Shown here piece after piece: positions 37,805 through 52,193 of a stretch of 64,000 nucleotides of DNA (positions are counted from its first letter, which is position 1; each line of letters starts with the position of its first letter). The position numbers and the translations under genes were made by a program. Location: assembly GCF_001719125.1 (NCBI RefSeq), contig NZ_CP017006.1, forward strand, positions 1,798,001-1,862,000, written 5' to 3'. This DNA comes from Sulfolobus sp. A20 (GTDB lineage: Archaea; Thermoproteota; Thermoprotei_A; Sulfolobales; Sulfolobaceae). Under the pieces are notes generated by a model. The model did no database searches, was not told where the DNA came from, and saw only the letters and a program-made list of their open reading frames with translations.

Positions 37805-38176
37805 TCAATATCTCATTTTAACGTTATGCCCATCATAAACGAACACTAGATTCTTCTCAAGACCTATTATCTTTCTGTTTGTTATAATTATTAGAGGAAA
37901 TCTCCTCAACTCTCTCTCTAATCTTATGACACTAGTCACCTTGAGCCTATTAGACTTTGTCTCTGACAATTCCTTCAATATTTTATAACTTTCTATAAGA
38001 TCATTCATATTATAGAAAGTTTGGACTAGCTTTCCATCTAATTCAACTATACTGTCATCGTCTATCAAGAATACAATGTCCAATGAGCCGAAATTTTCAA
38101 AGAACTTTCTTAGGCCCTCTTGAAGCTGTTCTAAATTAATATTGGAATTCAGATCTATTGCTATTAGCGGTTCCAT
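37805..38176 (-). CDS. Hypothetical protein
   Basis: A 123-residue protein with an alternating alpha/beta pattern: 'MEPLIAIDLNS', 'SLDIVFLIDDDSIVEL', 'RLKVTSVIRLERELRRFPLIIITN' (in part). Acidic residues at strand ends suggest a compact sensor or nucleotide-binding fold, but no motif is diagnostic. The ATG at 38176 is preceded by an A/T-rich element 25-30 bp upstream. Its upstream flank has received the MITE-like insertion at 38265. Confidence 0.5.
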   Translation of the reverse strand: MEPLIAIDLNSNINLEQLQEGLRKFFENFGSLDIVFLIDDDSIVELDGKLVQTFYNMNDLIESYKILKELSETKSNRLKVTSVIRLERELRRFPLIIITNRKIIGLEKNLVFVYDGHNVKMRY

Positions 38177-38264
38177 AGTGAACTAACCTAATATACCTTT
38201 ATAAGCTTTTGGGCAATAAAAGCTAACAATATTTTTAGAGTCCGTTATTTCCTCTAAAGTTTTT

Positions 38265-38499
38265 GTGTGTGGACAACAATTTGGTTGATATGAATTGAAT
38301 TTTGTTTATTGTGGAAAAGTATTTTGCATGAGGCAACTCATCTATTGGGGCGAGAAGATGAATGAGTTTGATTTCCTAACACTTAACTCAACAAGAAACA
38401 CAATAACGAGATGGCTAAAAATATTCTTCAATACAATTTACTCGAAATCTATTAGCATAAGTTGGAATATGGGGGTGGATGAAATTGTTGTCCACACAC
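38265..38499 (+). mobile_element. MITE-like deletion derivative of the IS6-type element, with target duplication
   Basis: A 235-bp element with perfect 18-bp terminal inverted repeats GTGTGTGGACAACAATTT, the same as the 794-bp IS at 56724. It is bounded by a perfect 8-bp direct repeat AAGTTTTT (38257-38264 and 38500-38507). It keeps the transposase start (MNEFDFL, ATG at 38358) and jumps directly to the last 40 codons, leaving a 54-codon open frame. It has no functional transposase and would need one in trans. Confidence 0.88.
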
Positions 38500-38845
38500 A
38501 AGTTTTTCTCCACATAATTTAATTATAGCGAATAGTAAAATCATTTTAGCTGAAAAGAACAACCTACCTTCGAAAACTGTTTTTCTTTTATAAATGTCTC
38601 ATGTACTTAAAAGTAACTAAGATTATGTTAAGTTTTTATAAAGTTTCATGTGGATTTACATTATGTTTTTATTCAACCTTGAATAATTAAGGAATCGAAA
38701 ACATGACAATAAACTTCTTTTATCTATAAAATTAGGAGTACTAATCAAAGTGATAATTTATAAATTTGTTTTTGCTGAAAAGCATTCACAATGTCAGTTT
38801 AATTTAATGATAAAGTTTATTACAACATCGAATTACATTATTCCT
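38500..38845. other. 346-bp gap
   Basis: I see nothing except the target-site repeat of the MITE at its left edge and the promoter of the next gene (TATA-like AAAGTTTATTA at 38812-38822). Confidence 0.35.
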
Positions 38846-39601
38846 ATGGCTATTACAAAAGAGCAACTACTTAATAGGGCTATTACCTTAATAGAGAAAG
38901 CTGAGGAAAACGGCATTACATTAAGATTGGTAGGAGGAGCAGCAATTGCGCTAATTGCAAAGAAGGGATCAGAGATCTATACTAGAACTTACAAAGATGC
39001 AGACTATTTTGGATTATCAGAACAAAGCAGTAAAATTTCCAAACTTCTTGAGAGCCTAAACCTAATCCCGAATAAGAGATTTAACGCTTTACATGGACAT
39101 ACCAGACTAATGTTTTTTGACCCTGTAATAAATTCCACAATAGACATTTTCCTTGACGAGTTTGTTATGTGTCATAAGCTAGTCCTAAAAGATAGGTTAA
39201 GAATAATGAAATATACAATACCAACGTCAGATCTCCTATTAACAAAAATGCAGATAGTTAATTTAACTGAAAACGATAAAAAGGATATATCTGCATTATT
39301 GTATGATATAAATATAGGAGATAAGGATGACGAAACTACTCTAAATGCAAATTATGTCGCAAAGATACTTTCAGACGATTGGGGTTTTTATAAAACATTT
39401 ACCATAAATCAAGATAGAATTATAGACTTCTTGAAGAATGATCCCAATAAGAATATCATCGAAGAAAAATTATTAAAGCTAAGAAATATCGTTGAGAGTC
39501 ATCCTAAAAGCATGAAATGGAAATTAAGAGCTAAGGTAGGGGAGAAAGTGAAGTGGTATAATGAACCAGAGGAAGTTAACACAAATTTTGTGCAACAGTA
39601 A
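38846..39601 (+). CDS. Nucleotidyltransferase-fold protein, AbiEii-like
   Basis: A 251-residue protein. 'ITLRLVGGAAIALIAKKGSEIYTRTYKDADYFG' (parts, near residues 22-54) is the Gly-Gly...Asp-x-Asp signature of the nucleotidyltransferase fold, and 'TIDIFLDEF' supplies the third acidic position. The C-terminal half is helical, ending in basic 'MKWKLRAKVGEKVKW'. AbiEii-type toxins and other small-molecule NTases share this outline; no antitoxin gene lies beside it. I start at ATG 38846 (another start at 38750 is in frame) because of the TATA-like box 28 bp upstream. Likely an accessory gene, lying next to a mobile element. Confidence 0.6.
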   Translation: MAITKEQLLNRAITLIEKAEENGITLRLVGGAAIALIAKKGSEIYTRTYKDADYFGLSEQSSKISKLLESLNLIPNKRFNALHGHTRLMFFDPVINSTIDIFLDEFVMCHKLVLKDRLRIMKYTIPTSDLLLTKMQIVNLTENDKKDISALLYDINIGDKDDETTLNANYVAKILSDDWGFYKTFTINQDRIIDFLKNDPNKNIIEEKLLKLRNIVESHPKSMKWKLRAKVGEKVKWYNEPEEVNTNFVQQ

Positions 39602-39926
39602 TTTTCTCTAAATAATTGGATTTATTAAAGATAAGTATGAAGAAATAATATTAATAATAGTATTCTTTATATAATTATATCAATAAAGATTAGATAATTT
39701 AGGTTGCAAAACTTAACGAGGAAGAAGCTATTCCTCCTATCTTAGAAAAGAGTAAAGGGATAAACAATACGGTATAGTGCAGAAATAAGAAACTAAATTT
39801 AGGTAAATCCATTACAAAGGTGAGAAAAGACTCGCCCTTCAGGGCAGAGAGGAAGTCAGAAATAGCAATATGTATATCTAAATGAATGAACAAGACTAAT
39901 ATACTCTCGGAGACTATTTAACCTTA
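39602..39926. other. 325-bp gap with IS-end relic
   Basis: No gene seen; contains the relic at 39828-39859 and the promoter of the glutamine synthetase-like gene. Confidence 0.35.
39828..39859 (-). repeat. IS200/IS605-type right-end relic
   Basis: GACTCGCCCTTCAGGGCAGA then GAGGAAGTCAG is close to the classic GCCCTTCAGGGC hairpin plus GGGGAGGAAGTCAG end. Reverse orientation to 15221. Confidence 0.5.
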
Positions 39927-41216
39927 ATGAACATTGAAAAAGAGTTAAGGGATAAAGGAGTTGAAATCCTTAGATTTACATGGGTAGGATTAGATGGATA
40001 TATCAGATCTAAAGGAGCATATATTGATCACGTAAGTGAGTTAATTAAAACTGGAATTGGCTTAACTATGGCAATGATGAGTTTCACTCCTATGGACTAT
40101 ATAAGTCCTTATGGAAGTTTCGGACCACAAGATGAGGATGTCTTTTTAATGCCAGATATTACGACTTTCTCAGTCTTTCCACCCTCAGCAATGGTAATTT
40201 GTAATTTGTATAGGCAAGGCAAGCCTTGGGAGTACGATCCTAGAAGCACGTTAATTAGAACTTTAGATAAAATTAAGGAACAGTTCAACTTCACCTTTAA
40301 GTCAGCATTTGAAATAGAGTTTTATCTAGTAAAAGATAAAAAGCCCTTTGATGATGCTAGATGTTTCGACCCTTCAGCTTATTATACAAATCCCATAATA
40401 CCTGAAATAGCTAAGACAATAAGAGAAATAGGTATTGAGCCTTTAAGAGTAATAAAGGAATATGGACCGGGGCAATATGAGCTAGATATATTACATAAAG
40501 AAGCGTTGAGGAGTGCCGATGAAGTCGTAATATTTAAAGAAGTGGCGAAGCAAATCAGTAAAAAATATGGAGTAGAGGCAAATTTTATGCCAAAACCGTT
40601 TAACAAGTTAGCCGGATCTGGTTTACATTTAAATATAAGTGCTTGGAAAGATAATCAGAACGTATTCTACAATTCAAATGATAAGTACGGGCTTAGCGAA
40701 TTAGCGTATAGTTTTATTGCAGGATTATTGGAGCACGCAAAAGCGTTAACTGCTATAGCTTCCCCCACTATAAACTCCTATAAAAGACTAGTACCAGGCT
40801 CATGGGCTCCAACTAAGATAACATACGGTTATAACAATAAGTCTGCCATGATTAGGATACCCACACCTTACCCCGGGTCTTCCCATCTAGACAGAAGAAT
40901 AGAGTATAGAGTACCAGATCCATCTACTAATCCATATCTACTTCTCACCGCTGTAATAGAAGCCGGAATAGATGGAATAGAAAGAGGGCTTAGGCCTAGT
41001 GAACCAATAAATGAAAACGCTTACTACAGAAAGGATGTTGAGGATATACCTAGGAATTTAAGAGAAGCCTTGAATGAATTGAAGAAGGACAATAGACTCA
41101 TAGAGAGAATAGGAAGACCTATAATAGAAGAGTTCATAAAAGTAAAAACTGCTGAGGTAGAAGAATATGAAAGTCTAGTAACTGATTGGGAATATGAAGT
41201 ATATAAGCACTTATAA
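39927..41216 (+). CDS. Glutamine synthetase family protein
   Basis: A 429-residue GS-fold ligase. It has the N-terminal 'FTWVGLDGYIRSKG' grasp domain, metal ligands in 'FEIEFYLV' (near 130), 'GPGQYELDILHKEALRSAD' (near 185) and 'GSGLHLNIS' (near 230), and the ATP/glutamate region 'RIEYRVPDPSTNPYLLLTA'. True GlnA motifs are only partly kept, which suggests a gamma-glutamyl-amine ligase rather than nitrogen-assimilating GS. The amidohydrolase gene 13 bp downstream makes the pair look like a split form of FluG, in which both domains are fused in fungi. Substrate unknown. Confidence 0.85.
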   Translation: MNIEKELRDKGVEILRFTWVGLDGYIRSKGAYIDHVSELIKTGIGLTMAMMSFTPMDYISPYGSFGPQDEDVFLMPDITTFSVFPPSAMVICNLYRQGKPWEYDPRSTLIRTLDKIKEQFNFTFKSAFEIEFYLVKDKKPFDDARCFDPSAYYTNPIIPEIAKTIREIGIEPLRVIKEYGPGQYELDILHKEALRSADEVVIFKEVAKQISKKYGVEANFMPKPFNKLAGSGLHLNISAWKDNQNVFYNSNDKYGLSELAYSFIAGLLEHAKALTAIASPTINSYKRLVPGSWAPTKITYGYNNKSAMIRIPTPYPGSSHLDRRIEYRVPDPSTNPYLLLTAVIEAGIDGIERGLRPSEPINENAYYRKDVEDIPRNLREALNELKKDNRLIERIGRPIIEEFIKVKTAEVEEYESLVTDWEYEVYKHL

Positions 41217-41229
41217 CTAAACTTATTTA

Positions 41230-42291
41230 ATGAAAATAATAGATTCCCATTCTCATTGGTTTTCGGCAAAGATAATGAATGAAAAAGAATTAATTATGGA
41301 GACCGCTGAGTCATGGAGAGAAGATGAAATAAATGCTGATGTTTTTACAATGAACAAATTAAGACCATTTTATTTATATCTGAGGAAGGAATTGAAGAAG
41401 CTTCTCGGTGATAATTTCATAGAAGAAAGGAACAAACTTATTAGGAATGATCCAGTAGATTACATAAAATTTCTATTTAATGATGCAGGAATAGAAGGAA
41501 TGGTAATAGATGTAGGCTTTGGGAAAAAAGAAATTGAAATACCGGTTAAGATCAAACTTCTCTTTAGAATAGAGAGTATTGTGAATGAGCTCTTCTCCCT
41601 AAGCTTTGATAAAGCCTTAGAGTATTTTGAGGAGAAGTTAAGAGAAAAAATAAAGAACGAAGGATATGCTGGTTTTAAAACAATTATAGCGTATAGGACT
41701 GGTTTAAAAGTTGTGTGTAACATTAACAAGGCAAGGGAAGACTTTAATAAAGAAGATAAAGATTGGTACGGTAGAATAGCTAAAGGCTTCAGAGATTATT
41801 TAGTTTGTGAAACATTAAGAATAGGTAAAGAGTTAGACGTGCCAATTCAGATTCACACTGGGGCTGGGGATAGGGACATAAAATTTGACCTATCAAGACC
41901 TTCGTACTTAACCGATTTAGTAAGGAAGTATGAAGGAAAGGTAGTCCTTGTTCACTCAGGCTATCCATATCATAGGGAATCAGCCTGGATGTCATATATT
42001 TTCCCCTCAGTCTACTTAGATACCTCACAAATAATTCCGTTTGCACCTTTAACAGCATTTAACGTGCTGAGGGAGATATTTGAAGTAGCCCCCCTCAATA
42101 AGGTTATGCATGGTTCCGATACTTTTAGCATTCCAGAAATAGCTTGGCTTGGTGCTAAATTAGCAAAAAAGGGGATTCAGAAGGTAAAAAATGAATTAAT
42201 AGAAAAAGGGATTATAGATGAAGAAGACGGTAATGAGCTAATAAATAGGTTCCTATATGATAACGCAAAAATTCTGTATAGATTTGACTAG
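41230..42291 (+). CDS. Amidohydrolase-2 family protein (FluG N-domain-like)
   Basis: A 353-residue TIM-barrel metal-dependent hydrolase. 'IIDSHSHWF' at the N-terminus holds the H-x-H metal pair, 'DVPIQIHTGAGDRD' (near 199) and 'GKVVLVHSGYPYHRES' supply further His, and 'VMHGSDTFSIPEIAW' (near 292) the Asp. It probably cleaves a gamma-glutamyl or amide bond made or used by the preceding GS-like ligase. Its 3' end overlaps the stop end of the PNGase A-like gene by 80 bp in opposite orientation. Confidence 0.85.
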   Translation: MKIIDSHSHWFSAKIMNEKELIMETAESWREDEINADVFTMNKLRPFYLYLRKELKKLLGDNFIEERNKLIRNDPVDYIKFLFNDAGIEGMVIDVGFGKKEIEIPVKIKLLFRIESIVNELFSLSFDKALEYFEEKLREKIKNEGYAGFKTIIAYRTGLKVVCNINKAREDFNKEDKDWYGRIAKGFRDYLVCETLRIGKELDVPIQIHTGAGDRDIKFDLSRPSYLTDLVRKYEGKVVLVHSGYPYHRESAWMSYIFPSVYLDTSQIIPFAPLTAFNVLREIFEVAPLNKVMHGSDTFSIPEIAWLGAKLAKKGIQKVKNELIEKGIIDEEDGNELINRFLYDNAKILYRFD

Positions 42292-44062
42292 AAGATGAGG
42301 GATCTACATTAATTGAAATGAATTGAACCCTATGATATACATAATATCCTGCTAAATTAGTAGTAGAGTTCTGAAGACCTTGAGCAGAGAAGATTTCCTC
42401 ATAGCCTTTACCGTTAATCAAGAAATAATTCGTTAAAGTTTTTGTAGTTAAGGCATTATTTGAAGTTAATGATACTAAGATAGCTCCACCATATTTGTTT
42501 ATTACCTCTATAATACCTCCGAACCCTCCTATAGCAGTCAAATTTTCGGAAGTCCTTATAGTTGTGTTTTGCCCATTAAATATGTTCTCATAGTAATAGT
42601 ATAATCCTAGAGTTAAAGTACCGTTTTGATAATAACTTAAGTTAAACGGTATTACATGGGGATTAGTTATTGGTATTTCAACTGCAGAAAATTGTAAGAA
42701 TATTGGATAATACACGTGATAATATAATGTAGAATTATATAAATTACCCATCTCTATAGCCCTTTCCATGAAATTCTCACCTAGGTAAGCTTTTTCGTAA
42801 ATCTGGTTAAACGTCTGATAAGCGTAAAATCTGCCTTCTTGGACTACATCTGAATATTCTATACCATGTTCAAACTTTAATACTGCTGAATAGTTAAGTA
42901 AATATGACCCACCTTCTTGGTAATATTCTCCTAGAAGACCACTATTAAATATAGGTGATGAGTCCATGAATCTCGAATATTGAGATAATAAAGTACCTTT
43001 GACTAGCGGATTTGATGAATTGACCCATAATAATAAGACAGATGCAATATCCCAATCATATGCGGGAGTGCCAGTTAGCAGATATGCTTCTTCTAAATTA
43101 GTTACAGTAACAGCTACATTACCTGATGAACCTAAAGCTAACATCGGCGTTAGATCTATAATATATGGGCTATGAAAAGATAGTGTGTTAATTGAAGTTA
43201 ATGGCTTCCACCAGAGCAAATTAATTCCACCAGTGTATATAGTCTCATAGGGATTTACTATCCCTGCTAACCTGCCATTGTAAAACACTTGTATTTCTCT
43301 CGTAGCAGGTTCATTAGCATACCAAAACTCATCTAATCCACCTCCCTCTTCATATAGTAGCATAGCTAACCTATAAGTACCATTAGGAATTGTCACATTT
43401 TGAGAAATATAATCATTTAATGAGTTCAGGATTATATAGGAGTAATTATATTTGTTTAAAAATAATGGTATAAAATAGTTTGGCAATCCTTTTGGTGGAG
43501 TTCCGGGATAAAGATATAAAGTCACATTCATCTTGTATATTCCAGTAATTCCTATTTTTGCATCATAAAAGTTCTCTATGACAAGCTGGAAAGTCACATT
43601 ACCCCTTAACAAATTCTCGAAAAGCGTAACATCTACAGAGGCTGTCGAATTTAACATTTCTTGAGTAGACCCCCAAAAAATTGGTACACCATCCGCGAAA
43701 ATGTAGGCAGCTCTATCATATTGTGCACCCTCAGACTCATTTATACTTACGTTAAGTATTTCCATACTATAGTTGCCGGGAGGTATATATACGTGGACAA
43801 TATAAGGAGTTAGACCACTATTATTAAAGATAGCATTCGTTGCTATATTTACCTTTATAGGAGTTACATTAGGTGGAAGAATTTGATAGGCTTCGAATGA
43901 GTAATATGAGGGATCATACAGTATTCTTCCACTGTTTAATGCAGTTATATTCCCTAAAAACATAGGCTTACTTAAGGACTGTTGCTGAGAAAAAGTAATA
44001 GCAGAGATTAAAGGCGTTCCGAAGACTAGTATCAAAATTAGTATCAATACCCTTACATTCAT
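42212..44062 (-). CDS. PNGase A-like peptide N-glycanase (secreted)
   Basis: A 616-residue exported protein: signal peptide (about 1-21) then beta-rich domains. 'YIVHVYIPPGNYSMEILNVSI' (in part), 'AYIFADGVPIFWGST' and 'ENLLRGNVTFQLVIEN' (near 110-155) are the pattern I know from Peptide-N4-(N-acetyl-beta-glucosaminyl)asparagine amidase A. These enzymes remove N-glycans from glycoproteins outside the cell at acid pH. Many N-x-S/T sequons indicate that it is itself glycosylated. The ATG overlaps the sedolisin stop by 4 bp (44059-44062). The end of the frame overlaps the convergent amidohydrolase by 80 bp, so the C-terminus may be somewhat longer than in relatives. Confidence 0.8.
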   Translation of the reverse strand: MNVRVLILILILVFGTPLISAITFSQQQSLSKPMFLGNITALNSGRILYDPSYYSFEAYQILPPNVTPIKVNIATNAIFNNSGLTPYIVHVYIPPGNYSMEILNVSINESEGAQYDRAAYIFADGVPIFWGSTQEMLNSTASVDVTLFENLLRGNVTFQLVIENFYDAKIGITGIYKMNVTLYLYPGTPPKGLPNYFIPLFLNKYNYSYIILNSLNDYISQNVTIPNGTYRLAMLLYEEGGGLDEFWYANEPATREIQVFYNGRLAGIVNPYETIYTGGINLLWWKPLTSINTLSFHSPYIIDLTPMLALGSSGNVAVTVTNLEEAYLLTGTPAYDWDIASVLLLWVNSSNPLVKGTLLSQYSRFMDSSPIFNSGLLGEYYQEGGSYLLNYSAVLKFEHGIEYSDVVQEGRFYAYQTFNQIYEKAYLGENFMERAIEMGNLYNSTLYYHVYYPIFLQFSAVEIPITNPHVIPFNLSYYQNGTLTLGLYYYYENIFNGQNTTIRTSENLTAIGGFGGIIEVINKYGGAILVSLTSNNALTTKTLTNYFLINGKGYEEIFSAQGLQNSTTNLAGYYVYHRVQFISINVDPSSSSQIYTEFLRYHIGTYLLAHYRLLHL

Positions 44063-47000
44063 CTTCCACCACCCCTCCTCCTCGTTATGATATATGATAA
44101 TACTAAAGCTATTACTGCTATTACTAAAGATACTATAGCTAAAATAGTTAATTCAAATACTGAGCTATGTAATGATAGAATATTCCCATTTAACATTACT
44201 GTATGATAACTATTGTAGACGTTAAAGGTCAAATTATAGGGTAAACCATCAGATACTTCAACTGTAAAAACATACTCCCCGTCTGGCAAAGTAGATGCGT
44301 TAAATGGAATACTAATACTTATCATTGATGGAGAAGAAGAAATTATATTATACTTGATAGGCTCTTCATTTACTAATATATTAATCAATTTCAAATATTC
44401 TCCAGTTATATTCACTATAATTGATTTTTGAGCTACTGTAATATTTGAAGGTAAATAGGCTAGTTTAGGAGGTGTAACTGTTGATAAAGTAGTTACGTTA
44501 GATAAACTTACACCATTCATATTAATTATCGAATTAGACTGTGAAAACGCATACTGGGAATTTTGAATGACTGATGAAGCTATGTTTACAGTAGAACTAT
44601 TGGCTATAATAGCCACTTGTCTACCTCCAATATTTGATTTCACTACATTAACAGTAGAATTCAATACTATCAACTGTTTAATATTTGAAGATAGAATTGT
44701 GACTGACGAGTCCTTGATTACGAGTTGACCTATTACATCATTATTCAATACTACATTTGTACCCATTATGGTGATGTTATTGGAGGCAATTGAAGATAAC
44801 ATGTAAGCTGAAGAGTTTATCTCAGCGAGTAAAGGTAAGTCACTGCTTTTAGAAATTAGTAATTGGTTTAAGAAGGTATATGGTAGAACATTAAAATAGT
44901 AATAGTTATTTGAATAAAGATTATAACCATTACCTGAAATTCCAGACACTATAGCGTTCCATGGACCAGATAAGGCATATTGATTTGAACCTTGGAATAT
45001 TGAGCCATTAAAAATTGAAGGTAATTCATAAATTCCAACCCATTCATTAAGTGTGGAATTGTATTGAAGAGGAACACCTATCTCAAAACCTATAATCAAG
45101 GACTCATAATTCAACTGAGTAGGCGATAGAGTAGCAGTGAAAGTACCATATTTTACCTCAGTACCATTGGGATATGTAATATTGGCAAAAATCTTAATCC
45201 ATTGCCCTTCATACACCGTATCACTTACCTTTACATTATAATTCAGATTAGCGGGAGAGACATAAAAGGCTGTAGTAAAATTGGAAATATCAAGACCAAC
45301 AGATGTATTAGTAACAGACTGAATTACTACATTATAAAACCCTGGAGTAGCATTATTTGGAACAGTAAAATTACCCTCATATAAAAGAAATAGTAAATAT
45401 ACTCCAAACTGAATAGTATCTGGAGCAGGAATTAAATGAACTTCCCCTACCAGCTTGCCAGATGGATTGTACACAAATGCATTGACATTAGAGGTAAACA
45501 GACCCGTAAACTCTATCGTTTCTACTAAATCAATGAAAGTAACGTTTTCCCCTGGAGACGCAGCAGGTAACCCATCATTTAATGGAGTTAAAACACCACC
45601 GAAATTATACTCTCCAAAATATACATAAGAAGTGGCTGAACCATAAGAGTCATTGATTACAAGCAAATATGTACCTTGAGGTAAAGGTGGTAATAAAGCA
45701 TAAGCCCCTTGATAGTTCCCCGGAGATGACATAATTAAAGGAACTGAAGCTACTATGTGACCATTTCTTATTAGATAGGCAGTGACGCTCTGATTAGCTA
45801 CTGGTGTTCCATTTGGATAGTAAACACAAGCTTCTATCGGGAAAGGTTCATTATAGGGTAATGGTATGTTATAAGGATAAGGAATAGGTTGAATAATGTT
45901 TATTGATTCTCCAACATCTATCTCCACAATACCAGTACCCACAAATGACCCAGAAGTACCATTCACTATAATCTCCCATAAGTTAGGAGGATATCCCTTC
46001 GATATTGTAAAGTTACCTATCCAATAACTTCCGTTATAGCTTAATGGAACAGTAGCTAAGTAGCCATTAAGAGTATAAATGTAAGCATTAAACGAACCAG
46101 AACTGACTTCAGTACCATTTGGATATGAAATATAAGCAGTTATCGTAAACGTTGAATTATAGAAATACCATGGTTGAGAAACCCCAGGCTCAAAAGTACT
46201 TACTGATATGCTTAAACTCTTACTTATCAAGTGCTTAATTGTACTAGCTAGTAAACCAGCATTAGGACTTCCTAATCCAGTAACTAGATTATAAGATCCA
46301 TTAGCATAATAATATCCATTATAACCAAAATTGATTGAATGAAATACCTCATGATATAATGTCGAATTTTGATAAATTTCGTAAAGTAACGGATTAACTA
46401 AACCTAATGGATGGCCTAAATAACCATCAATATCTGCAATAATCCCAGCCCATAGTGGCGTAGCTAAACTAGTTCCGCCTATTACTACCTCTTGTCCTAA
46501 GGCATAAATCACAAAACCAGTATATGGGTTAGCATCAGCTGCAACATCTGGTATAGTTCTATAATCGCTATGAGTAATGTAAAACTGATACCAAGGAGAA
46601 GGAAATAGAGTACTATACCCACCACCAGACGACACAGTACCTTCTACCTCACCAAAATATAATGGGTTAACACTCCAAGCAGTTTCATAGCCATAAGTTG
46701 CAGTAGAATTGTAATTCGAAATATAACCTGAAGTCACGTTAAGGAATAGAGTAGTTCCTCCAACTGCTGTTACGAAAGGTGAAGATGCTGGATAGCTTGC
46801 AGCACCATATACTGTGGGAAGATCGTTATAAGCTCCTAGATCACCAGAAGCGGCAAAGAAAGAAATACCCTCAGCAGTTCCAATCTCAAAATAATAGTCT
46901 AAGTAAGGATAATTTGGAAATGGTTGTCCCTCGAAAAACGCATAAAAGCCTGACGCTCCAAATAAAATCTCTGGTAGACCAAAACTCATAGATACCACTT

Positions 47001-47991
47001 GAGCTAAGTCCTCACTGACTACCAAATTAATACCGGACCACAATGCAGGTATTGAAGCTGAGGGGGCAACTACTACAAGCAAATTAGCATAAGGAGCAGT
47101 AGTGTGAGCAATTTCTACATCCAACGCTACCTCCCCATACCAGCCCGTAATTAGCCCATTGAGAGGTTCGTATCTACCAATAGGTAAAATAGTTATATTA
47201 GCAGGAGGTAAATGGAAATGCTGATCAAATATCTTAACGTCTTGATATAACTCTGGATCACCATAAGCTTCAATTAATGCAATAGTAACTTTCTTATCCG
47301 CTGTAGCGTTGAACAGTGGAGTGATATTATACGCTCCTTCAATATCTTGAGGAGTATACCATGTTGCAGAGAACTGGAACGTATAGGTGAAAGATGAAGA
47401 TACTTGATTACCCAACAACAAATTACCGTTAACGATCTTGCCCAATTGAATCATAGGTAATTGAACATTAGTGAAATTAGTTAGACCTCCTATCAAGACG
47501 TTATTAAGTTCTGGAGGTATACTGACTTTACCTTCTGGTTTATAATATATTTCTCCATCACTTAGCGATTTAACTAGGATTAACTTAGTGTTAAAAATTG
47601 AAGAGACTTGAAGAGCAGTTGCCTCAGCGATGACCTCAAACGGACCTTTATACAATACAGTAAAGTTCTTACTCTCTAAGTAGCTTACTACTTGAGAGAC
47701 TTTATTCTCCTGCGAAAACATAGAAATTAATTGAGAGTTGGCTAGAGGCTTAACTTGATGGTTAGCAACCTCTTGTGCCATCAAATAAAGTGAATTGAGG
47801 TTCTTAGGAGGAATAAAGATATAAAGGTAAATTGGCGTATTATAATTTAACGTTGAAATGACCTGGGATTGAGAATAGGTAGGAGATATGTAAGTATTTC
47901 CCACTGAAGAATATACAATTAGAGACGTAGGAAGTAAAATAAATAATGTTAGAGCTGATAATATTATACCTTTTAGAGTAGTACCTTCCAT
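44059..47991 (-). CDS. Giant membrane-anchored sedolisin (S53/kumamolisin) protease
   Basis: A 1310-residue surface protease. Order: signal peptide (about 1-28); pro-kumamolisin activation domain (about 45-180); S53 catalytic domain (about 210-590) with Glu and Asp in 'GEVALDVEIAHT' (near 287), oxyanion Asp in 'FFAASGDLGAYND' (near 383) and the Ser in 'GGTSLATPLWAG' (near 505); then about 650 residues of Ig-like beta modules with recurring 'YPNGTEV' hairpins; a beta-helix-like stretch of short repeats (about 1080-1170); and a transmembrane helix before the tail 'TRRRGGGR'. S53 enzymes work at low pH, as outside this acidophile. It is the first gene of a two-gene operon with the PNGase A homologue. 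Confidence 0.92.
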   Translation of the reverse strand: MEGTTLKGIILSALTLFILLPTSLIVYSSVGNTYISPTYSQSQVISTLNYNTPIYLYIFIPPKNLNSLYLMAQEVANHQVKPLANSQLISMFSQENKVSQVVSYLESKNFTVLYKGPFEVIAEATALQVSSIFNTKLILVKSLSDGEIYYKPEGKVSIPPELNNVLIGGLTNFTNVQLPMIQLGKIVNGNLLLGNQVSSSFTYTFQFSATWYTPQDIEGAYNITPLFNATADKKVTIALIEAYGDPELYQDVKIFDQHFHLPPANITILPIGRYEPLNGLITGWYGEVALDVEIAHTTAPYANLLVVVAPSASIPALWSGINLVVSEDLAQVVSMSFGLPEILFGASGFYAFFEGQPFPNYPYLDYYFEIGTAEGISFFAASGDLGAYNDLPTVYGAASYPASSPFVTAVGGTTLFLNVTSGYISNYNSTATYGYETAWSVNPLYFGEVEGTVSSGGGYSTLFPSPWYQFYITHSDYRTIPDVAADANPYTGFVIYALGQEVVIGGTSLATPLWAGIIADIDGYLGHPLGLVNPLLYEIYQNSTLYHEVFHSINFGYNGYYYANGSYNLVTGLGSPNAGLLASTIKHLISKSLSISVSTFEPGVSQPWYFYNSTFTITAYISYPNGTEVSSGSFNAYIYTLNGYLATVPLSYNGSYWIGNFTISKGYPPNLWEIIVNGTSGSFVGTGIVEIDVGESINIIQPIPYPYNIPLPYNEPFPIEACVYYPNGTPVANQSVTAYLIRNGHIVASVPLIMSSPGNYQGAYALLPPLPQGTYLLVINDSYGSATSYVYFGEYNFGGVLTPLNDGLPAASPGENVTFIDLVETIEFTGLFTSNVNAFVYNPSGKLVGEVHLIPAPDTIQFGVYLLFLLYEGNFTVPNNATPGFYNVVIQSVTNTSVGLDISNFTTAFYVSPANLNYNVKVSDTVYEGQWIKIFANITYPNGTEVKYGTFTATLSPTQLNYESLIIGFEIGVPLQYNSTLNEWVGIYELPSIFNGSIFQGSNQYALSGPWNAIVSGISGNGYNLYSNNYYYFNVLPYTFLNQLLISKSSDLPLLAEINSSAYMLSSIASNNITIMGTNVVLNNDVIGQLVIKDSSVTILSSNIKQLIVLNSTVNVVKSNIGGRQVAIIANSSTVNIASSVIQNSQYAFSQSNSIINMNGVSLSNVTTLSTVTPPKLAYLPSNITVAQKSIIVNITGEYLKLINILVNEEPIKYNIISSSPSMISISIPFNASTLPDGEYVFTVEVSDGLPYNLTFNVYNSYHTVMLNGNILSLHSSVFELTILAIVSLVIAVIALVLSYIITRRRGGGR

Positions 47992-48571
47992 AATATTATT
48001 AAATTTTTATACATATAAAAGGATTACTTAAATAAAATTCTACACAAGAGCTGAAAATTTGTTATTTAGGAGTGAACGACAAAAATCTCCTTAATTTACC
48101 ATATCTTCATTAACACCTCAACAGCCATAAAGGTTATCATTTAAATTATTTTCCAGACATCATTGCTAAAGCCAGGTGAGCTAGCTATACCAACATCAAG
48201 ACTACGACCTCCTTACGAGCTAGGGTCTTGCTGAGGTCTAAAGTACTATCCCCATTTGTGCGGAAATTACTCTGATAGTTGTTCGTGGTTTAAAAATCCT
48301 TTTAACCTGCTTAAAAGACTTATCCTTCATTAATATTCACTATAGTTAAACTGTAGACAATTCCTCATATGGGAGAGTGTTAAGTAGTTTATGTTCATAA
48401 GTATAGGATAACTAATTTTATTCTCGCCAAAAAATTAACTCGCTCTGAGAATAAATCTTGAGAATAAATCTAAGAGGCAATACTCTGAAAGGAGAAGATC
48501 AAACAGCGGGAAGAAAAATAAGTATCACTTATAAAAAATTATTTATGATTCAGTTATTTTATTTCTAGCTT
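47992..48571. other. 580-bp gene-free stretch
   Basis: No gene recognised. An inverted repeat GACCTC...GAGGTC (48206-48211 and 48233-48238) lies in a GC-richer island at 48160-48260 that may be another decayed IS end. The promoter of the sedolisin operon lies at 47992-48030. Confidence 0.35.
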
Positions 48572-48772
<201 letters not shown>

Positions 48773-49038
48773 TCAAAATACTCTTGAAGGTTTCACATAA
48801 ATAAACTTTACGCTATTCAGATTAGTACAACTTAAAGAAAAGCCTTAAGATAAACTAAAGTTAGTACCTTAGCCGAAATAACTCAATAACGATCACTTAC
48901 GTGAAGGTAAATTTTTCTTATCTAATATAAAAATTTACTGAAAAAATTATTGAAAAAATAAATAAGTACTTTGATATAACGTTACCATTTGGGAAAAATA
49001 TAAATTTAATAATAAAGAATACTCTCATATAGAGAGCT

Positions 49039-49341
49039 ATGACTATGGTTGAAGCTTTAAACAAAATAATGAAAAACAAGAAAAAGAGCGCAAATTTAAG
49101 GCTATCCTACTATCCATTTTTACTAGCAGTAAAGGATCACGTCCTACAAGAAGAAGATATGTTGAAGAGAAAAAGAGAACTGAACAATTTCCTAGATAAA
49201 CTGTATGGAGAGAGCAGAAGGTATTTACTAAAATATGCAAAAGATAAATATTATTGTGTCTGTGGAAAAACTTTCTCCTCAGCATATCACTTTTACACGC
49301 ACGTGTTTACAGAACATAAACCAACCATCCTTAAAAACTAA
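49039..49341 (+). CDS. C2H2 zinc-finger-like small protein
   Basis: A 100-residue basic protein. The helical first 70 residues ('KLYGESRRYLLKYAKDKY') lead into 'YYCVCGKTFSSAYHFYTHVFTEH', a C2H2-like finger with a C-x-C knuckle in place of C-x2-C. It probably binds nucleic acid. ATG codons at 49039 and 49045 are both possible; a TATA-like TTTAATAATAAA lies at 49004-49015, roughly 25-30 bp upstream. Convergent with the APC permease gene (18 bp). Confidence 0.6.
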   Translation: MTMVEALNKIMKNKKKSANLRLSYYPFLLAVKDHVLQEEDMLKRKRELNNFLDKLYGESRRYLLKYAKDKYYCVCGKTFSSAYHFYTHVFTEHKPTILKN

Positions 49342-49359
49342 AGCGAAAAAACTAATACA

Positions 49360-50874
49360 TCATTCAGGGGGTATCTCCTTATAAACTAGTCTTATATCTA
49401 TCCCGTTCTTCTTCATTCTATAAACGTAAGACGAGAGGAAAATCACTGCCCCTAAACCAATTAGGCTAAGTATATATGCTATGCCCGGAAGATAAGGCTG
49501 ACCTTCTGAAGTGATCACTCCAAAGTATGGGTTAGTAAACGCATAGTACCCCATGAAACCCATGAACAGTATTGAGAGGATTGAAGATATAAGCATACCA
49601 GCATTCTTCTCCTTTAACGATTGAAGAACTCCTGCAATACTAACTAAGATAAGGTAAGCAATAGCTAAAGGAGTATAGCTATACAACGCTTCATAACCAT
49701 TAGGACTAATTATCGGCACAGCCAAGAATACTAAGGTGACGGCAAAGTCCAAGAGATGAGCATAAACTGGAGAACCCTCTCTATTTAACCTCGAGAAAAC
49801 CTCAGGGAATAGTCTATCGAAGGAAAACGCAAAAACATATCTAGCAAAAACAACAACACCAAAAGCCATTACGAAGAACTCCCAAGCAATTAAACTTATA
49901 CCCAAAAACCACTGTAAAGCGTAATTTTTAGCTAATGCTATACTAACTGACCAGAAATTATAAGTGTAAGTAGGGTAGAGCGAGTAATTAAAACCATATC
50001 CCCCTGCTAAATCCATCAATAAGAAAGGAACTGTGATAAATACTAATGTCAACACGCTACCTAGAATTAGATTATATCTAACTCCTCTCTTTGATTTGAT
50101 CTCTGAGGCAACAGCAGGCCCTGCATATAGCCAAATGTATGCAAAGGAAGCAAAATAAGGAATCATATAAATCGTTGAAGACCAACTAAACCTAGGACCA
50201 GTATATGGTGTAGCTGTAAGATTAAAAGCCTTTAAAAAAGGTTGTATCACCACATGAAAATCACTGACATTAAACGCTATAACTAGGATAGCTACTAACG
50301 TGCCCAATAAGGATAATATGCCTAAAGCAGAAGTTAAAGTATAACCCCATTTAGGTCTAAAAATATTTATTAAGATAATAATTGTAAAAGCTAATGCAGC
50401 CAGCCCATAAGCTAAATAAGCATTACTCGTAGTAAACACGTTATTCGCTAAGTTAACTAGATAAGGTTGAGAGTCTAATGAACCGATTACTGATAAAACC
50501 GTACTAATAGCAGATACTGAAAAGAAAGCTGACAACGCAAAGAAAGGTGGCATATTAAAAGCTAAAGCAATTCCCATTATAGCCCCTAGTGGACCGTTTA
50601 ACCTCCTAGACAACCATACGTAATCACCTCCAGTCCTAGGAATCCTCTGAATGAAGTAAGTGTAAAGTACTACTAAAGGTAAGGTGAACAAAAATGTAAG
50701 TAAGGATGCTACCCATAATACAGCACCCTTTACTATATAAGGACTTATACCAATGAATATTGCCAAACCAGCACCCATATTAGCTACATTAAGCATAGTA
50801 GCGTCAAGCAAAGATACGTTCTTGACCAGACCAGAAGTCTCCCTAACAAATAATTTCACATTACCCTTAGCCAT
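49360..50874 (-). CDS. APC superfamily amino acid permease
   Basis: A 504-residue membrane protein with about 12-14 helices. The start '[19 protein letters not shown]' and '[21 protein letters not shown]' (in part, near residue 78) match the first helices of APC family amino acid transporters; '[18 protein letters not shown]' (near 235) is the helix 6 region. Substrate cannot be read from sequence. A single gene with a promoter in the 140-bp gap toward the pilin gene. Confidence 0.85.
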
Positions 50875-51018
50875 AAGTTAGACTTATGATTAAAAAATTT
50901 AAATTTATCTTCAGAAAATGAGTTCGGAAAATAGCTTATAATAAAAATGAGCATAAAACGTGCTAATTCATTAATAGAAAATAATGAGAACAAAAATAAA
51001 AAAAAATTGATTTTATCT

Positions 51019-51444
51019 TCATTGTGCTACTACCGCTACTTGCACTGTCGCACCATCAGATAGTCCTAAAGATATCGTATAAGTAGAGCCAGCCTGTGGA
51101 GTAAAACCATTAAAAGTTATAGTCACCGTATTAGGTCCTGCAGTTAAATCGATAGTAGTGGGAGTTCCACTATATGTTGTCCCTACAATAATCGCTGAGA
51201 CTATTTGAACATTACCACTACTCTTTAAAACGAAAGTAGCAGTAGCACAATTATTACTACTACCTGGGCTTATTGTTCCAGTGCCTACTTGTGTTACTGT
51301 TGGTGTTCCTCCAAATGCTCCGAATAGTCCAAATGCAAAACCAACAACTACTAAAGCTATTATTACACTAGCAATTACTAGTATTAAAGCAGTTACAGCA
51401 CCACTGATAGCCCTCCTACTTTTCAACATCTTCCTATTACTCAT
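51019..51444 (-). CDS. Type IV pilin, copy 1
   Basis: A 141-residue archaeal pilin. 'MLKSRRAISGAVTALILV' is a class III signal peptide; PibD-type cleavage is expected after Arg-Arg-Ala, leaving a hydrophobic polymerising helix ('VTALILVIASVIIALVVVG'). The rest is a Ser/Thr/Gly-rich beta domain typical of the heavily glycosylated Sulfolobus pili. Promoter, N-terminal half and last 25 residues are almost identical to the copies at 57667 and 58835, while the middle (about residues 58-110) differs. It is in the opposite orientation. I use the ATG at 51444 since the conserved TATA (GTTTATATAG) lies 27 bp before it. Confidence 0.85.
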   Translation of the reverse strand: MSNRKMLKSRRAISGAVTALILVIASVIIALVVVGFAFGLFGAFGGTPTVTQVGTGTISPGSSNNCATATFVLKSSGNVQIVSAIIVGTTYSGTPTTIDLTAGPNTVTITFNGFTPQAGSTYTISLGLSDGATVQVAVVAQ

Positions 51445-52193
51445 CAAAAAATAGTAAAGAAAAAGTTCTATATAAACATTACTCATAATAAACAATAAGT
51501 AGATCGTTTACGATAAGGAGGATATATGAGAGAAGAGACTAAGGACGTCCTCTAAGTATCAAGTCTACGCTAGAATTTGCAGATATTTTGTCGAAAATCT
51601 TGATGCATATTTGCCAACTTCTCGCTTAGTATGCTCTCTCATTAATCCGTGGTTACAAAGTGATGAAAGCCTCACCCTTAGGGAAGGGGTAAAAGTTTTT
51701 TCAGTCAAAAACATTTCAGTACGTAGATGGGAGGGGTTCTCTGCACCTCTCGACACATGAGAGATGTAAACACGAAAGGATGGTAAAAACCAATGATACG
51801 CTCTAAGGGGAGGAAGTCAGATCTGAAAGACAGAAGAGATGGTTAAGAAGTCGCAGTTTAATATAGAGAAAATAGTACTATACAGCGTTATCTATATCCT
51901 ATAAGGAGCTTTAATCCTCTATAAGTACAGAGGCTAAAATTCTTTATTAGTTCTCTTGGTATCACAATTTGTATAATTACAAATATTTACAAAGTCTGTT
52001 AGGCTATTCTTGGACCATTCGTAATACCTCTATCAATCAATTCCGCTTATCAAAAGCATATAATGAACACCATCGTTTAAATTTCTATATAAGTTTTTTC
52101 CTAAATATTAAGTATTAATAGCTAAATTTGAAGATACTAAGCATATTCTATTTACATATTAATTTATATATACATCCCGGGATAATCTTCTAT
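51445..52193. other. 750-bp gap between divergent pilin genes, with IS-end relics
   Basis: Contains the pilin promoter, two relics of IS200/IS605-like ends (51666-51692 and 51800-51823, the latter with GGGGAGGAAGTCAG) and the minor-pilin promoter near 52160-52172. The 63-codon minus-strand frame at 51565-51756 lies in this debris and is probably not a gene. Confidence 0.45.
51666..51823 (-). repeat. Remnant of an IS200/IS605-like end region
   Basis: AAGCCTCACCCTTAGGGAAG (51667 on) resembles the hairpin half, and TCTAAGGGGAGGAAGTCAG (51802-51820) resembles the terminal half of the family. The ~110 bp between may be leftover element sequence. No tnpB reading is recoverable. Confidence 0.4.

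Follow-up and report, generated by a model that had tools for sequence, protein, structure and literature searches.

Two adjacent genes of Sulfolobus sp. A20, encoding an S53 (sedolisin-like) protease and a PNGase A-family glycanase, appear, on the evidence of conserved architecture and expression signals, to form one translationally coupled two-gene operon. They lie within the window, the 64,000-nucleotide stretch of DNA analysed here (contig positions 1798001-1862000 of a genome of 2,688,317 bp). On balance, we lean toward viewing the pair as a unit tethered at the surface and regulated by nutrients, which removes glycans from Sulfolobales-type N-glycoproteins and cleaves the proteins outside the cell at acid pH; its activities, substrates, order of action and purpose are what we infer from the material set out below.

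According to this proposal, the protease would be exported, activated through loss of its pro-domain and kept at the cell surface by a C-terminal membrane helix, to which an Ig-like/beta-helix stalk leads. Export is likewise proposed for the PNGase, which would hydrolyse the GlcNAc-Asn amide of chitobiose-linked N-glycans. Heavily glycosylated targets, namely shed or dead-cell S-layer and the cell's own surface proteins, could thereby be opened, peptide cleavage exposing glycosylation sites and de-N-glycosylation exposing peptide bonds, in either order. The peptides and glycans would then be recovered under nutrient shortage.

The two open reading frames and 4-bp overlap described in an earlier note on this DNA were borne out, both genes lying on the minus strand and sharing an ATGA (Table 1), as were its assignments of a membrane-anchored S53 protease and a secreted PNGase A homologue. 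A TATA-like box is found about 25 nt 5' of the S53 ATG in most of 31 Sulfolobaceae genomes. No Shine-Dalgarno sequence was seen upstream of the S53 start in the window, and the same holds in most Sulfolobaceae genomes; this being the usual leaderless arrangement, the S53 transcript is probably leaderless. A simple Shine-Dalgarno match precedes the PNGase start in 27 of the 31 genomes. Taken together with the congruent trees described below, a TATA-led, leaderless S53 gene followed by a Shine-Dalgarno-led PNGase gene argues for a genuine operon. An Rfam scan of window positions 38000-52000 returned no RNA family match. The 3' end of the PNGase gene overlaps that of a convergent amidohydrolase gene (41230-42291, plus strand) by 80 bp, at 42212-42291. 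A gene for a Sul7d-like DNA-binding protein of 64 residues, recognized by eye, occupies 48572-48766 (minus strand) between the C2H2 and S53 genes; the gap that holds it is longer in A20 than in other genomes of the genus.

Table 1 Features of the S53-PNGase locus, in window positions
Feature	Position	Strand	Basis
S53 (sedolisin/kumamolisin) protease gene, 1310 aa; operon gene 1, upstream	44059..47991	-	Pfam; nearest solved relatives
PNGase A-family gene, 616 aa; operon gene 2, downstream	42212..44062	-	Pfam
ATGA overlap, S53 stop/PNGase start (4 bp)	44059..44062	-	ORF coordinates
TATA-like box (TTTTATATGT), ~24 nt upstream of S53 ATG	48011..48020	-	Sequence
Shine-Dalgarno-like stretch (GAGGAGGGGTGGTG), within S53 gene end, ahead of PNGase start	44067..44080	-	Sequence
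S53 pro-domain, residues 41-173	47473..47871	-	Pfam Pro-kuma_activ
S53 catalytic domain, about residues 205-578	46258..47379	-	Alignment to kumamolisin 1t1e
Glu287, predicted catalytic Glu	47131..47133	-	Invariant, 20 sequences; matches kumamolisin GEVELD motif
Asp291, predicted catalytic Asp	47119..47121	-	Invariant, 20 sequences; kumamolisin alignment
Asp384, predicted oxyanion-hole Asp	46840..46842	-	Invariant, 20 sequences; kumamolisin alignment
Ser508, predicted nucleophile (GGTS)	46468..46470	-	Invariant, 20 sequences; kumamolisin alignment
About four Ig-like beta domains, residues ~593-1046	44854..46215	-	AlphaFold2 model
Predicted beta-helix section, residues ~1063-1184	44440..44805	-	Short regular strands in model
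C-terminal transmembrane helix, residues ~1277-1302, then RRRGGGR	44086..44163	-	Hydropathy; kept in orthologues
PNGaseA domain, residues 76-358, predicted double jelly-roll	42989..43837	-	Pfam; AF2 model and Foldseek
N-terminal hydrophobic signal-like segment of PNGase, residues 1-~22	43997..44062	-	Hydropathy
Asp116 (QYDR), candidate equivalent of PNGase F Asp60	43715..43717	-	Invariant in 31 sequences; QYDR in 9vla
Glu245 (DEFW), candidate equivalent of PNGase F Glu206	43328..43330	-	Invariant in 31 sequences; DE-W in 9vla

The nearest solved structures of the protease by sequence are kumamolisin and sedolisin, and its Pro-kuma_activ domain scores 55.7 bits (cut-off 23.5); the subtilase profile Peptidase_S8 matches the catalytic domain at 22.0 bits, barely above its cut-off of 21.8, and NCBIfam assigned no family to either protein. 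The activation pro-domain, the Ser-Glu-Asp triad and the oxyanion Asp of the S53 family are all present, the residues having been aligned across 20 orthologues that include Acidilobaceae and Marsarchaeota. Absent is the Asp pair of the family's calcium site, which in the linked clade is replaced by Ser/Gln/Pro and Asn when compared with kumamolisin, the register at the first Asp depending on an FHxI motif. This two-Asp site is common among S53 proteases and does not define membership. In this region (window 46282-46347), the Sulfolobaceae S53 proteases compared lack both Asp ligands, whether PNGase-linked or paralogous (L128-L131, L139), the paralogues having replacements like those of the linked clade; both ligands are retained by kumamolisin and by two relatives from thermoproteotes (L140, L141). 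The loss may reflect adaptation to very low pH.

The protease has a hydrophobic N-terminal segment and the C-terminal helix with its basic tail, kept in orthologues. Residues 585-1310, modelled with AlphaFold2 (mean pLDDT 84), contain a further beta domain beyond the Ig-like array and the beta-helix-like section. Foldseek matched this model to tandem-domain proteins only (macroglobulins and titin, TM ~0.2); given such generic matches, no specific function was assigned to the C-terminal part. Four more S53 genes, of about 600 to 1280 aa, are located near contig positions 156000, 1482258, 1581175 and 1984585, and the genome has a single PNGase gene. Indeed, with one to six pro-domain matches per genome, the Sulfolobaceae are rich in sedolisins.

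The PNGase matches Pfam PNGaseA (PF12222) at 113.1 bits (cut-off 25.3), and its hydropathy profile displays no second hydrophobic segment beyond the N-terminal one. Considered alongside the C-terminal helix of the protease, this suggests that the protease is tethered and the PNGase free or loosely held. The only solved chain found by the PNGase profile was PNGase Bb (9vla, a complex with glycopeptide), which the AF2 model (pLDDT 84.9) also matched over nearly its full length (Foldseek E 1.9e-28, TM 0.63/0.71); the second match was PNGase F (1pnf, E 2e-9), over the double jelly-roll. The active site of PNGase F comprises Glu206 and Asp60, the latter flanked by Trp59 and Arg61, making the Tyr-Asp-Arg of the QYDR motif its likely counterpart. 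Some double jelly-roll proteins are non-enzymes, and a catalytically dead, glycan-binding partner of the protease could be envisaged. We regard this as very improbable: both candidate catalytic residues are invariant in 31 of 31 aligned sequences, and the motifs around them are common with 9vla, an enzyme whose structure was determined in complex with glycopeptide. Working in acid lies within the capacity of the PNGase A family, since a Terriglobus member has a pH optimum of 2.6.

The two genes are not separate in all other genomes, the outcome that the earlier note had set against its idea: a survey of gene neighborhoods revealed coupling far wider than that note knew. All 31 Sulfolobaceae genomes examined, which represent 11 genera and reach down to 1.5 Mb in size, contain a single PNGaseA gene, and in every one an S53 gene lies directly upstream on the same strand, at a spacing of -20 to +8 (exactly -4 in 21). 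The other window neighbors, encoding an amino-acid permease, a C2H2 protein, an amidohydrolase and a glutamine-synthetase-like protein, adjoin the pair only in its own genus (seven genomes). These flanks provide an internal control for the decay of gene order: they are replaced outside the genus while the pair is kept throughout, so that the adjacency is far beyond chance. An accidental or isolated neighbor pair is thereby ruled out, as is a pseudogene, since nearly all genomes keep the frames open and the catalytic residues in place. The PNGase is split into two frames in L149:7910-9761 (genome G456) and in L118:7947-9745 (Vulcanisaeta distributa JCM 11216), possibly through sequencing error or decay.

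Beyond the Sulfolobaceae, in a survey spanning one phylum, acid-type PNGases (those with a profile score above 600) were found in five Acidilobaceae genomes, three of which have a linked S53 gene. Linked pairs also occur in Candidatus Marsarchaeota G2 (G037/L115) and in one further thermoproteote (G456), bringing linkage to 36 of 40 acid-type PNGase genomes. Most of these linked pairs outside the family, those of the Acidilobaceae included, have the 4-bp overlap. Two Acidilobus-type genomes carry the S53 orthologue at a different place from the PNGase, and the Vulcanisaeta-like G298 and G403 have an acid-type PNGase without a linked S53; tight linkage is thus dispensable, which counts against the unit that we favor. 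Within the class, an S53 protease is present in 37 of 37 genomes with an acid-type PNGase and in none of 19 with other PNGase types.

In lineages lacking S53 (L099, L098 and the Thermogladius-type L091 and L094), the PNGase gene lies near a gene for a secreted coiled-coil protein, although likeness among these proteins may be compositional. That of L099:3343-13000 (= L119, Desulfurococcales MAG EvPrim.Bin15) has a C-terminal membrane helix in a SlaB-like layout, and a 1245-aa subtilase is encoded one gene beyond it. These three genes are a possible counterpart of the S53-PNGase pair, and their arrangement in a neighboring lineage without S53 may point to a swap of protease partner as acid habitats were entered.

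The two genes also appear to have been inherited jointly. PNGase-linked S53 proteins form a clade of their own (support 100), to which neither own-genome nor related paralogues belong. The S53 and PNGase trees have 24 of 34 splits in common over 37 taxa, with a distance correlation of 0.89; shuffling the labels (2000 permutations) gave at most two common splits and a maximum correlation of 0.32. In both trees, the Marsarchaeota copy groups with Sulfolobales archaeon HS-7 (support 99 for PNGase, 55 for S53), which suggests that the unit moved jointly between these lineages; judged from the trees, inheritance is otherwise largely vertical. These findings bear on whether the genes could encode two independent exo-enzymes without a joint substrate, their promoter shared only from a common extracellular need under the same nutrient signal. 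The unlinked genes kept in Acidilobus, and the four additional S53 genes set against one PNGase, would suit such independence. We nonetheless think it improbable, given that every Sulfolobaceae genome couples its PNGase to a member of one S53 subclade, which follows the same tree, own-genome paralogues falling outside.

Least credible of all the alternatives is a role in defense or predation, in which the pair would remove virus receptors or the glycoprotein coat of competing cells. Sulfolobales surface glycans do act in species recognition, and they are hydrolysed by one of the fuselloviruses; however, the pair is universal and largely vertically transmitted rather than patchy, and a PNGase search of phage records gave no match, for which reason a viral link was also dropped.

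In the Sulfolobales, N-glycans have the GlcNAc-GlcNAc-Asn (chitobiose-Asn) core typical of eukaryotes; SlaA of S. acidocaldarius carries about 27 such N-glycans, and PNGase F has been reported to release the N-glycans of a Sulfolobus strain. The linkage is hence cleavable, and S-layer and other surface glycoproteins of the cell's own type would be the obvious substrate, one compatible with the glycan linkage data. The earlier note had N-glycans removed before the protein is cut. PNGase A-type enzymes have classically been applied to glycopeptides obtained by proteolysis. As one acid PNGase is, furthermore, thought to require a flexible substrate, a protease-first order is as plausible as the glycan-first order, and the latter is not supported over it.

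Published data on S. acidocaldarius speak to regulation. That Saci_1147 and Saci_1148 are the orthologous pair found at locus G022 is our inference, based on their annotation, their order and their occurrence as a single copy rather than on locus tags. Both are down on xylose and belong to one iModulon (independent component) with the sox genes. The XylR paper (PMC7264815) makes no mention of either. Saci_1148, an 'asparagine amidase', is up on nutrient depletion and has been proposed to act in glycan recycling. Saci_1147, a 'subtilase', was highly transcribed in a nutrient-excess study, which counts against our favored explanation. That no Sulfolobaceae genome surveyed lacks the pair, not even at 1.5 Mb, also fits housekeeping better than facultative feeding.

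The pair may, less probably, serve surface quality control or S-layer turnover, constantly removing misfolded or damaged own glycoproteins and making room in the S-layer during growth, much as glycoproteins are degraded in eukaryotes but outside the cell. The universal, single-copy PNGase would be expected of such a role, as would a protease that is predicted to stay attached to the cell, and the lineage without S53 has its PNGase beside a secreted coiled-coil membrane protein and a large subtilase. Against this, nutrient-dependent regulation and the rise on starvation indicate supply over constant maintenance, and the neighbors of the pair differ between genera. It is tempting to speculate further, though with no greater confidence, that tethered acid protease and PNGase form an obligatory, family-wide machine for surface glycoprotein turnover in the Sulfolobaceae. 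Such a machine would recycle or quality-control the cell's own chitobiose-linked S-layer glycoproteins outside the cell, paralleling eukaryotic deglycosylation-coupled degradation with unrelated enzymes.

The enzyme families are known, and their fixed pairing seems undescribed. The earlier note knew of no description of this coupling, and a search of the open-access literature found no paper containing both 'sedolisin' and 'PNGase'; its claim must be qualified to the extent that Saci_1147 and Saci_1148 had already been listed as co-regulated and Saci_1148 proposed as a glycan-recycling enzyme. The papers searched give no settled account of how archaea whose S-layer is heavily N-glycosylated dismantle or recycle this coat, and for that process the pair provides a two-gene candidate, present in every Sulfolobaceae genome surveyed, S. 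acidocaldarius included. That organism requires N-glycosylation, and methods for markerless deletion are established for it. The pair also connects an N-glycan core common to eukaryotes with a dedicated predicted removal enzyme and could yield, for use in glycan analysis, a PNGase that withstands heat and acid.

Among the closest known systems, Saci_1147 and Saci_1148 are almost certainly orthologous to the A20 pair and are reported to be co-regulated and nutrient-responsive; in the papers found they are not handled as a functional unit, and the names 'subtilase' and 'asparagine amidase' are annotations only. With kumamolisin and sedolisin (MEROPS S53), the A20 protease has in common the pro-domain, the E-xxx-D and GTS motifs and the oxyanion Asp; it differs in some 700 extra residues forming the Ig-like/beta-helix stalk, in its C-terminal membrane anchor and in the replacement of both usual calcium-site Asp ligands. 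PNGase F and the zebrafish acid PNGase Ngly2 resemble the A20 PNGase in the double jelly-roll, the Asp/Glu active site and the reaction proposed, but belong to other Pfam families, Ngly2 carrying thioredoxin-like and PA domains in addition. PNGase Bb has the same fold and the QYDR and DE-W motifs at about 16% identity. Finally, the plant, fungal and Terriglobus enzymes of the PNGase A/PNGase H+ family (PF12222) are united with the A20 protein by a profile match above cut-off and by an acid environment; the predicted A20 PNGase stands apart in being archaeal, in coming from a host of hot acid and in having its gene coupled to that of a protease.
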